Shown piece by piece: positions 56,949 through 58,506 of a DNA stretch of 64,000 nucleotides; the first letter of the stretch is position 1; the number at the start of each line of letters is the position of its first letter. The translations under genes and the position numbers were made by a program. Origin of the DNA: Arthrobacter sp. C2 (GTDB lineage Bacteria > Actinomycetota > Actinomycetes > Actinomycetales > Micrococcaceae); the NCBI GenBank assembly GCA_024207135.1, contig CP042428.1:2914001-2978000 (forward strand). Direction: 5' to 3'. The notes beneath the pieces are model-generated. The model made no database searches. It was not told where the DNA came from and saw nothing but the letters and a program-made list of their open reading frames with translations.

Positions 56949-57719
56949 GTGGAGATTCCCCTGGCCTCGATCCCGTCCGGAAGCATTCGCATGCGCGACG
57001 CGCGTTCCGAGGCGGTTCGCGAAGTGCATTTGCGCCCCTTCGAACTCGGCAACACCCATGTCACCGGCGACCAATGGGCGCAAGTCCAGGGGACGGACCC
57101 GATTGGCCGGCCGGGATCGAACGTTCCGACGCATCCGGTGACCTGGTTTGCTGCGGTGCGCTGGTGCAACGCCGCTTCCCGCCTGGCGGGGCTCGAGCCC
57201 GCCTACGCCTTCGGCACCGATACCGTCACCTGGAACGTGGCGGCCGAGGGCTACCGGCTCCCCACGGAAGCCGAATGGGAGTTTGGCGCCCGCGCCGGAA
57301 CGAGCACCCCGACGCACGGGCCGCTGGCTGACATCGCCTGGACCTCGGCCGACGGCCTCGATGGCCCGCAAGCGGTCGGGCTCAAGCAGCCCAACGATTT
57401 CGGCCTGTTCGACATGATCGGTAATGCCTGGGAATGGTGCTGGGACTACGCGGATACCGCCCGCTACGGCGGCTACCGAAGCCTGCGCGGCGGCGGGTGG
57501 GACGACAAGGCCTGGAGCTGCCGGGCATCGGTGCGCCGCGGCAGCGCACCGGACGCCGTGCTGGAGGACGTCGGCTTCCGGGTGGCCCGCGGAGCGGTCG
57601 GCGAGCGCGGCGCGAGAGCCGCCCAGGGCTGGTCTGCCGAGGCCGATCGGCAACGCGCCGATATCCGCGGCCTGTTTCCCCTCGGCTGGACCCCGCTGCG
57701 GAGCCTGCTGCGCGACTGA
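56949..57719 (+). CDS. SUMF1/formylglycine-generating-enzyme-like domain protein
   Basis: 256 residues from GTG 56949. The FGE-sulfatase (SUMF1) fold is recognisable by FELGNTHVTGDQWAQVQG, the run PVTWFAAVRWCNAASRLAG, RLPTEAEWEFGARAG and GNAWEWCWDYAD, RGGGWDDKAWSCRAS and GFRVAR. In true formylglycine-generating enzymes a copper-binding Cys pair lies near the end (SYCxRYR context); here only one Cys remains in that stretch. It is therefore more likely a SUMF1-like protein of other function than a sulfatase maturase, and no sulfatase gene is nearby. The ribosome binding site is weak. Confidence 0.8.
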   Translation: MEIPLASIPSGSIRMRDARSEAVREVHLRPFELGNTHVTGDQWAQVQGTDPIGRPGSNVPTHPVTWFAAVRWCNAASRLAGLEPAYAFGTDTVTWNVAAEGYRLPTEAEWEFGARAGTSTPTHGPLADIAWTSADGLDGPQAVGLKQPNDFGLFDMIGNAWEWCWDYADTARYGGYRSLRGGGWDDKAWSCRASVRRGSAPDAVLEDVGFRVARGAVGERGARAAQGWSAEADRQRADIRGLFPLGWTPLRSLLRD

Positions 57720-57723
57720 GCGC

Positions 57724-58014
57724 GTGCCGACGGGCACCCGTTGCGCGGGCGTATACTTTTTCCCATGTCCATCACGATCTCGACCCAGCTGCCCCGCGGG
57801 CGTTCGGGGGTAGCCGGCGTCTTTTTCGCCGGCTCGAGATAGGGCTGTCCGCTTTCGGTGATTTTTTGCGCCCCCGTGGCGCGCCCGCATCCGCTGCAGG
57901 TTTTGTGCGCTTTCCTGCGCCCCTGCACCTGCGGATCACGTAAACCCACCCCGAACGTGCCCCCTCGCCCGCGCTGCGGCGACGAGGCGGCAAGACAGTC
58001 AGGACCTTTTCTCC
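57724..58014 (+). promoter_or_regulatory. Promoter and structured leader of the FBP (FusB-like) gene
   Basis: TATACT (57752-57757) is a good -10 box; GTGCC-N4-GGCAC (57724-57737) covers the -35 position, where no consensus is seen. The message should begin close to the ATG of a 25-codon ORF (57765-57842). Hairpin 1, AGCCGGCG/CGCCGGCT (57812-57834), lies inside the end of that ORF. A T6 run follows at 57862-57867. Hairpin 2, ATCCGC-TGCAGG paired with CCTGCA-CCT-GCGGAT (57889-57936), and a weak third stem (57963-57987) precede the FBP ribosome binding site. The layout suggests attenuation by ribosome stalling. Confidence 0.55.
57765..57842 (+). CDS. 25-codon leader ORF upstream of the FBP gene
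   Basis: ATG 57765 lies 7 nt after the -10 box and has no ribosome binding site, so it would be read from a leaderless message. It encodes MSITISTQLPRGRSGVAGVF, then FAGSR and TAG. The last eight codons lie within or just past hairpin 1, so the position of a translating or stalled ribosome would decide whether that hairpin forms. The peptide resembles no protein I know. Its value is probably regulatory, acting on the downstream gene that encodes a ribosome/EF-G-associated protein. Confidence 0.5.
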   Translation: MSITISTQLPRGRSGVAGVFFAGSR

Positions 58015-58506
58015 ATGCTCCCCCTCATCGAACAACAAATCCGCGCCTCCTTCATCAACGCCTCGCTGCGCGAGCGCAAGGCCATCACCCTCCCGGAAAA
58101 CTTCGGCTCCCTGGACTGGGCCAACCTGGAATTCCTGGGTTGGCGGGATCCGAAACTGCCGCTGGTCGGCTACGTCGTCACCTCCCTGGGCGATGCAACC
58201 GTGGGCATCATGTTCCGCAAGGCCGAGGGCAAGATCCGCAACCGGGCCCAGTGCTCGTGGTGCGAAGATGTTGACCTGCCCAACGACGTGGTGTTCTTCA
58301 ACGCCAAGGCCGGCGGTCAGGCCGGTCGCGACGGCGACACCATCGGCATGCTCGTGTGCGCCAACTTCGAATGCTCCGCCAATGTCCGCATGATGAAGTC
58401 GTTGCCGTACATCGGCTTTGATCGCGAGGCCGAAATGCACCGGCGCATCGCCGTGCTGCAGGAGCACGTGTTGAACTTCGCCAAGCGCGTGCGCGACGGC
58501 GAATAG
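58015..58506 (+). CDS. FBP-domain protein (FusB-like, EF-G-binding, treble-clef zinc finger)
   Basis: 163 residues. An N-terminal helical part is followed by the FBP_C treble-clef zinc finger: Cys80 and Cys83 in AQCSWCEDV, Cys115 and Cys120 in VCANFECSANVR. This is the domain of staphylococcal FusB/FusC, which bind elongation factor G and free stalled ribosomes from fusidic acid; actinobacterial chromosomal members are common and little studied. ATG 58015 follows AGGACCTTTTCTCC. It has a long leader with its own small ORF. A role in protecting or rescuing translation is inferred from the family. Confidence 0.85.
   Translation: MLPLIEQQIRASFINASLRERKAITLPENFGSLDWANLEFLGWRDPKLPLVGYVVTSLGDATVGIMFRKAEGKIRNRAQCSWCEDVDLPNDVVFFNAKAGGQAGRDGDTIGMLVCANFECSANVRMMKSLPYIGFDREAEMHRRIAVLQEHVLNFAKRVRDGE

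Follow-up and report, generated by a model that had tools for sequence, protein, structure and literature searches.

How is a chromosomal gene for a FusB-like protein controlled in an actinobacterium? For fusB on the Staphylococcus aureus plasmid pUB101, the excerpts cited here describe translational attenuation, with induction when fusidic acid stalls ribosomes on the leader, and they report that FusB at high levels inhibits translation in vitro and name this inhibition as the reason for such control (PMC3352095, PMC12008383, PMC12493156). In an excerpt of the last of these, the regulation of FusB homologs is stated as unknown (PMC12493156). The gene named fusB in an excerpt of PMC9282665 is an EF-G paralogue, irrelevant to the FusB-like FBP treated here, and was set aside. 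We analysed a stretch of 64,000 nucleotides (the window, positions 2914001-2978000 of a 4.56-Mb host genome) from the genus Paeniglutamicibacter (g1, Micrococcaceae), in which an FBP gene is preceded by a short ORF that a preliminary description had put forward as a candidate ribosome-sensing leader. The FBP is 80-97% identical on six contigs, four from Paeniglutamicibacter and two from Arthrobacter sp.

The FBP product matches PF16571 (FBP_C) over residues 8-159 (E 2.7e-48); among 61 homologues, Cys80, Cys83 and Cys120 are invariant and Cys115 is kept in at least 90%. A profile of 61 actinobacterial FBPs matched FusC (2yb5, E 9.4e-6) and Far1/FusB (E 0.0097-0.012) through the C-terminal treble-clef domain, while a single-sequence search with FBP matched neither FusC nor Far1/FusB, and PADLOC and PHROGs gave no family for the protein. 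Profile positions 21-126 align to FusC residues 102-201, and the N-terminal four-helix bundle of FusB and FusC is absent. As the shared part has only some 20 residues ahead of it, we call FBP a C-terminal-domain homologue and not a FusB: the label "FusB-like" of the preliminary description holds for the PF16571 match and the treble-clef cysteines 80, 83, 115 and 120, and it does not extend to the FusB N-terminal helical domain, which has no counterpart here. On the ribosome, both domains of FusB contact EF-G and the C-terminal domain pulls domain IV (excerpt of PMC12008383), so that, by analogy, EF-G binding by the single-domain FBP is plausible.

The elements around this gene are collected in Table 1. 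The preliminary description had pointed to a TATACT box 7 nt before ATG 57765, to a 25-codon ORF without ribosome-binding site (RBS) and to an 8-bp hairpin inside the end of that ORF, and all three are present; TTTTCCC precedes the ATG and there is no Shine-Dalgarno sequence. Two further elements fared less evenly, as the T6 run exists and is not conserved among relatives, and the bulged hairpin at 57889-57936, which belongs to the consensus of 11 genus leaders with a few double changes among them (RNAalifold), is absent from the consensus of eight leaders of a second genus (g151). The GGRGGU element reads GGGGGU in the window leader and mostly GGAGGU in the others. The leader RNA (57758-58020) folds with a z of -3.06, none of 200 shuffles being equally stable. 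Upstream, an ORF with an FGE-sulfatase domain (PF03781; 55899-57719) ends 45 nt 5' of the leader ORF, and the leader -10 box sits in this 45-nt gap. Over 57600-58100, Rfam gave only two matches, both far below gathering scores, and no leader family; NCBIfam likewise has no family for the leader.

Table 1. Elements of the FBP leader and gene, in window coordinates
Feature	Position	Strand	Note or basis
-10 promoter box TATACT	57752-57757	+	7 nt 5' of leader ATG; leaderless transcript expected
Leader ORF MSITISTQLPRGRSGVAGVFFAGSR, 25 codons, last sense codon AGA, stop TAG	57765-57842	+	sequence; 25 codons in 15/15 genus members
Possible hairpin A, GCCC-CGC-GGGC, within leader ORF	57791-57801	+	sequence conserved, covariation absent
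Purine-rich GGRGGU element, immediately 5' of hairpin B	57806-57811	+	alignment and codon table
Hairpin B, 8 bp (A-U plus GCCGGCG/CGCCGGC), leader ORF end	57812-57834	+	pairing and covariation in 24 leaders
Rare arginine codon AGA, final sense codon of leader	57837-57839	+	fixed in g1 and g151 type-1 leaders
Putative anti-RBS segment GGCUGUC, directly 3' of leader stop	57843-57849	+	leader-specific complementarity; RNAalifold pairs CUGUC core
T6 run	57862-57867	+	sequence
Spacer hairpin around GCGCC-CCCGU-GGCGC	57867-57883	+	RNAalifold consensus, 11 genus leaders
Spacer hairpin ATCCGC...GCGGAT, bulged	57889-57936	+	outer pairs in RNAalifold consensus, 11 genus leaders
Stem C, RBS side GACAGUC, 15-21 nt 5' of FBP start	57994-58000	+	RNAalifold, segment grid, pair runs
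AGGA, Shine-Dalgarno-like stretch nearest FBP start	58001-58004	+	by eye
FBP gene, 163 aa, FusB/FusC C-terminal-domain homologue, four Cys	58015-58506	+	PF16571, profile matches

Is the short ORF more than a chance reading frame? An FBP gene was found in all 15 g1 members searched (own genome included), and in each of them it is preceded by an ORF of exactly 25 codons that starts with ATG or GTG 6-7 nt after a TANNNT box and ends in AGA-TAA or AGA-TAG (15/15 for all these features); the N-terminal residues vary among species. Beyond the genus, 103 of the 296 class genomes carry an FBP_C gene, as do 133 of the 245 family genomes and 16 of the 23 genomes in g151. This patchy presence in the Micrococcaceae, together with truncated matches in a few genomes (for example G457 and G361), suggests frequent loss or transfer. 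Leaders of the kind seen in the window, called type 1, were collected by a hairpin scan of 209 FBP loci combined with reading by eye; part of the upstream regions was covered by the script scan alone, and some loci are counted twice. Ten hairpin-scan matches were dropped by eye as not type 1 (L021, L026, L056, L059, L066, L102, L130, L138, L157 and L193). There remained 41 type-1 leaders, 15 in g1, 12 in g151 and 14 in other groups; the other FBP-positive g151 genomes (16 in total) comprise three with other leaders or none and one with a truncated FBP. The 27 leaders of g1 and g151 were picked by the FBP gene and most of the other 14 by hairpin plus the codon AGR, so that conservation of AGR and hairpin is unbiased only for those 27.

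In a scan blind to reading frame, 36 of the 41 leaders showed a TANNN[T/C] box 6-8 nt before an ATG or GTG, against a control rate of 1.1-1.5% per position and frame, and in all 36 an open start lies in frame with AGR (two also have a start in another frame); stops fall in the +1 and +2 frames in 28/36 and 10/36. The signature is missing within the scanned range in five leaders (L189, L191, L192, L198 and L213), of which L191 has it further upstream than that range and L213 carries an in-frame stop 5' of hairpin B. A stop directly follows AGR in 33 of the 41 and not in the other eight. L114/L289 stands outside the in-frame counts (of these 41 and of the 19 new leaders below) because its frame is shifted relative to the hairpin; by eye, an in-frame AGA precedes the stop there. 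An internal start after GGAGGU was considered as a general mechanism and rejected, as by eye it is possible only in L112 and L213.

The alignment of 38 leaders (near-identical ones were removed here and in the stem C tests below) reads, from 5' to 3', start codon, GCCC-NNN-GGGC, GUNNGGRGGU, hairpin B (8 bp), NNN, AGR and usually a stop. A covariance model built from these 38 was run on 297 whole genomes of the order at E<=0.01 and gave 43 matches in 41 genomes, 34 of which precede FBP (in 34 of the 297 genomes): all 32 matches at E<=0.0018, and two of the 11 weaker ones. For the best 30 of the 43, the FBP gene lies 132-258 nt after the match start (L293 in two pieces), and 20 of these 30 are not training leaders, ten being so; of the other 13 matches four lie before FBP and nine elsewhere. 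Across 246 genomes of the class, the model gave 12 matches at E<=0.001. Ten had been seen before; of the two new ones, L310 precedes FBP and L311 (E 6.6e-5) does not. Matches to the model also favour AGR. Among the new leaders outside the model, a -10 box stands 6-8 nt before the start codon in 19/19 and the start is in frame with the rare AGR codon in 18/19; the exception, L294, was scored out of frame and by eye has a second, in-frame AGA 2 nt on. A stop directly follows AGR in 17 of the 18 in-frame ones. Their start-to-AGR distance varies from 42 to 72 nt, so that the reading frame is kept across different lengths, and leaders of 15 codons occur (for example MSFQEVVGAHCAGTR). An exact sequence pattern matched five times in 100 Micrococcaceae genomes, each time before FBP by coordinates.

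By comparison, the leader ORF, leaderless and in frame, is thus real, and these comparisons give good support to a conserved leader with a leaderless ORF that is largely specific to FBP; the recurrence of its features before FBP genes is more than chance. The preliminary description had proposed alignment of related leaders as a check on the ORF and stems, and the ORF, the leaderless start, the hairpin and the AGR-stop proved to be kept far beyond the genus. A real ORF could also encode a leaderless small protein with a function of its own and no part in FBP control. Most of the peptide is not conserved, however, 34 of the 43 model matches precede FBP, and the stem C described below would tie the leader to the FBP start, so that we give this reading almost no credence.

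Hairpin B, which overlaps the end of this ORF, is conserved at the RNA level, as judged from paired changes and codon choice. As the hairpin itself had served to find some of the leaders, it was counted again on a set of 24 from g1 and g151 that were chosen by FBP homology with the hairpin ignored: 96.4% of cells are paired, 18 cells are changed on both sides (6.5 in shuffles, 0/500), and the covariation score is 0.297 versus 0.148 in shuffles (0/500 as high), these shuffles retaining the relatedness among leaders. Over all 38 leaders, 91.8% of cells are paired and 29 are changed on both sides versus 9.2 (0/500), with two of five measures not clear of shuffles (57/500 and 64/500). RNAalifold recovers the hairpin unprompted. 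Pair 37-59, between the wobble base of one codon and the first base of another, is AU in 8, CG in 8, UA in 6, UG in 4 and other in 12 of the 38. In the codon table of 36 leaders (two gapped rows of the 38 left out), Gly in the 5' arm is encoded by GGC in 36/36 and Ala in the 3' arm by GCC in 35/36. Hairpin A is paired in 81.6% of cells over 38 leaders, shows no double change and no covariation in the 24 leaders of two genera, and by eye is absent from the 15-codon leaders L287, L290, L292 and L295; owing to the lack of covariation it is left out of the argument. Pairing of the leader UUCGG with the conserved spacer stretch CCCACCCGAA was likewise tried and rejected, being good in L001 and broken in L010 and L012 (by eye).

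An RNA element of this sort may be read in other ways than by a ribosome. Hairpin B with GGRGGU could form a protein-binding site, for instance an operator through which FBP regulates itself, with the ORF secondary. In favour of this speak the RNA-level conservation of the hairpin and leader L213, which keeps the RNA element though the in-frame stop breaks its long ORF. An excerpt of PMC3352095, moreover, describes a tendency of FusB to bind nucleic acids and names control over its own production as one possibility. But an operator needs neither the ORF frame and start that are kept in 36/41 and 18/19 leaders nor an AGR that is an in-frame codon, and we consider it distinctly unlikely. The codon table bears equally on a nascent-peptide arrest of the ErmCL kind, in which the leader peptide would stall the ribosome in the presence of a drug. 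The general layout agrees with that of erm and cat leaders, a short ORF and hairpins preceding a resistance-type gene, and the peptide pattern [EG]V-x-G...A-[GD]-x-R recurs, including a Val before the stem (32/36) whose wobble base is free and which lies outside the stem core. Against it, this pattern mostly overlaps the hairpin arms, where the conserved Gly and Ala codons keep even their wobble base, wide variation is seen at the three loop positions and towards the N-terminus, and leaders go down to 15 codons; we hold peptide arrest to be highly unlikely.

One fixed feature is the codon at the peptide end. AGA accounts for 8 of the 953 arginine codons in 41 composition-predicted ORFs of the window, and it is the last sense codon in 15/15 g1 and 12/12 g151 type-1 leaders; AGG prevails among the new leaders outside the model (16/19). 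One type-1-like leader, L112 (MSDDREGVAGMFAGSL), ends in TTG-TGA in place of AGR-stop. Because most of the peptide is not conserved, sensing by slow decoding or translocation at the rare arginine codon is more likely than peptide arrest.

How might the end of the leader reach the FBP start? Two separate RNAalifold runs, one on 11 g1 leaders and one on 8 g151 leaders, took the stretch that opens shortly before AGR and closes at the FBP start codon; both pair a CUGUC directly after the stop with a GACAG some 20 nt 5' of that codon, with an unfavourable overall covariation term (+0.92 in g1, +0.08 in g151). In the window this stem C joins GGCUGUC to GACAGUC, beside AGGA, and the pairing is kept despite changes in L008 (UAGUUCUGU/ACAGGACUA), L179 (CUGUUCU/AGAACAG), L185 (GCCGUUUU/GAAACGGC) and L269 (AGUUCUGCC/GGCAGAACU). 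As segment limits had been set after inspecting the sequences by eye, a 36-cell grid was run, in which the own pairing energy of 26 leaders from three genera was compared with that of partners swapped within the genus for 9 x 4 segment pairs. AGR+3..+20 with FBP -32..+3 gave z 4.9 (0/2000 shuffles, three genera pooled), the overlapping segment AGR-10..+7 gave z 2.7, and the other 34 of the 36 segment pairs stayed at |z|<=2.1. By genus, the RNAduplex test gave p 0.0035 in g1, 0/20000 in g151 and p 0.058 in g172, and groups f19, f9 and f7 showed no leader-specific stem C (helix score p 0.23-1.0; RNAduplex p 0.34-0.50); this per-genus test covered the leaders other than those of g6, g3, g154 and f22 and L275, L277, L284, L293 and L294.

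A contiguous run of at least six pairs exists in 20 of the 26 leaders of the three positive genera and is lacking in six, and the longest run in a few leaders is not at the CUGUC/GACAG place. Earlier anchored tests were weak (p 0.013-0.07, one with a wrong anchor), an unanchored helix test gave p 0.0038, and a test on long-segment duplexes was noisy (p 0.06 in g1, 0.02 in g151, 0.009 in both, 0.39 in the rest). The distance from AGR to the FBP start ranges from 83 to 350 nt. Since the segment limits were informed by looking and the shuffles keep relatedness, the evidence for stem C, and with it for sequestration of the FBP RBS by the post-stop segment in the three genera pooled, is good and not final. 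The g151 leaders L178 and L255, in which the stop after AGA is lost and the next one comes eight codons on, are also without a 6-pair stem C, as if both features decayed together.

The region between leader and gene could alternatively act on transcription. Attenuation by an intrinsic terminator was dropped, none being seen in 41 spacers (1.1 expected); the T6 run is not conserved, and a terminator scan of the window gave one weak site, at 57737-57749 (1 found, 1.5 expected). Rho-dependent attenuation, in which the C-rich, G-poor spacer would serve as a rut site and translation of the leader would decide whether Rho stops transcription before FBP, fits this absence of intrinsic terminators, and Rho is known to be used in such leaders. 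The spacer has more C than G in 41/41 leaders, as against 18/41 for the leader ORFs, and for other FBP loci the upstream region is richer in C than in G in 111 of 171 cases. The gene segment, however, also has C>G in 41/41 (partly on truncated stretches), and Rho leaves unexplained why the post-stop segment pairs leader-specifically with the FBP RBS; we regard this mechanism as unlikely.

Altogether, we consider it probable, from the comparative sequence data, that the leader controls FBP in cis by translational attenuation: a ribosome delayed at AGR-stop would mask the anti-RBS segment. Transcription would start at or beside ATG 57765, and with such a start ribosomes would enter at the 5' end, needing no Shine-Dalgarno sequence, and read the 25 codons through hairpin B up to AGA and the stop. 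As long as the RNA is free, 57843-57849 is predicted to form pairs with 57994-58000 and thereby to hold FBP low. When EF-G translocation, decoding or termination is slow, ribosomes would be held at AGA or the stop; the footprint of a held ribosome would then cover the anti-RBS segment, the FBP start region would be freed and FBP would be made, and FBP, like FusB, would be expected to free EF-G from the ribosome. Given the usual ribosome footprint, placing AGR or the stop in the A site would indeed cover the post-stop segment. We infer the pausing at AGR-stop, the direction of the switch, its inducer and EF-G as the target of FBP. In a footprint simulation, a ribosome at AGR raised RBS accessibility by only 0.05, and rises of 0.04 to 0.05 were also seen with the ribosome at the ORF start and at AGR+18, giving no discrimination; the simulation does not strongly support the attenuator model. 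As for the stalling attenuator put forward in the preliminary description, its conserved ORF and a leader-specific pairing between post-stop segment and RBS speak for it, and its T-run is not conserved and most of the peptide varies.

More tentatively, the leaders might form a class of attenuators, largely independent of peptide sequence, that gauges elongation capacity in general: ribosomes on the leaderless ORF would have to open the conserved hairpin and then decode the rare AGR immediately ahead of the stop, and a loss of EF-G activity from any cause, a drug being only one, would expose the RBS of an EF-G release factor; this wider reading is possible and, in our judgement, somewhat doubtful. 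If true, it would amount to a homeostatic EF-G/FBP loop in several families of the order, with two or more further leader designs in sister lineages.

The proposed attenuator has relatives among known systems. With the pUB101 fusB leader, as described in the excerpts cited above, it would share a FusB-family gene, stalled leader ribosomes and release of the RBS through an alternative mRNA fold, and it differs in its actinobacterial chromosomal setting, its leaderless start, its hairpin with rare AGR and its single-domain FBP; the two are likened by description. In the translational attenuators of cat and erm genes, a ribosome delayed on a short leader ORF uncovers a sequestered RBS. Short ORF and sequestered RBS would be common ground, whereas here most of the peptide is not conserved and what is fixed is a rare codon and an in-ORF hairpin. 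Mycobacteria have polycysteine leaderless uORF attenuators, in which the ORF before the operon is likewise short, leaderless and read out by codon, again in actinobacteria; the type-1 leader has AGR instead of a Cys run, a predicted stem to the RBS of the next gene, and a downstream gene expected to act on translation. A 2002 study in E. coli, cited in PMC3985003, reportedly dealt with an AGR codon followed by a stop, which is also the usual end of a type-1 leader, and pausing there in actinobacteria is a candidate only. Among the open-access titles and abstract starts listed for FusB, fusB or FBP leaders and for leaderless attenuation, none describes a type-1 leader.

Is the leader a property of the species or of the gene? 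The type-1 label, mapped onto a tree of 141 FBP proteins, requires 2 changes versus 31.6 in shuffles, so that the leader follows largely the FBP lineage and not the species. The family of the window contributes both type-1 and type-2 rows, and group f19 has type-1 rows besides a separate clade of nine rows without recognised leader; row L275 has an aberrant long branch and is unreliable, being probably a wrong ORF. The f19 clade is a second FBP paralogue (L029, L124, L125, L127, L129 and L131-L134). Other genera carry a different, type-2 leader before FBP, in which GVA/EVA-xx-AC is encoded over an RNA of the form GRGGYGGCC-N5-GGCCUGC (L149, L151-L157, L159, L160, L163, L193, L194 and L019-L021). 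Its ORF is led by a Shine-Dalgarno sequence where read by eye, the motif ends about 70-220 nt before FBP where measured, and 15 of the 46 matches to its exact pattern in 100 genomes lie just before FBP genes by coordinates. In genus g23 (L018, L202, L203 and L216), a type-3 leader, MQATLTLxPFV..., stands with a CCCGUUCGUC hairpin before FBP (by eye).

For the actinobacterial branch, the type-1 leader thus offers a specific, testable answer to the question of how FusB homologs are regulated, and its covariance model finds the FBP genes that carry it. The leader is a possible reporter for EF-G-limited translation. Its existence would suggest that FusB-like proteins have a physiological role beyond the staphylococci, and it may be how FusB-like genes switch on when translation falters.
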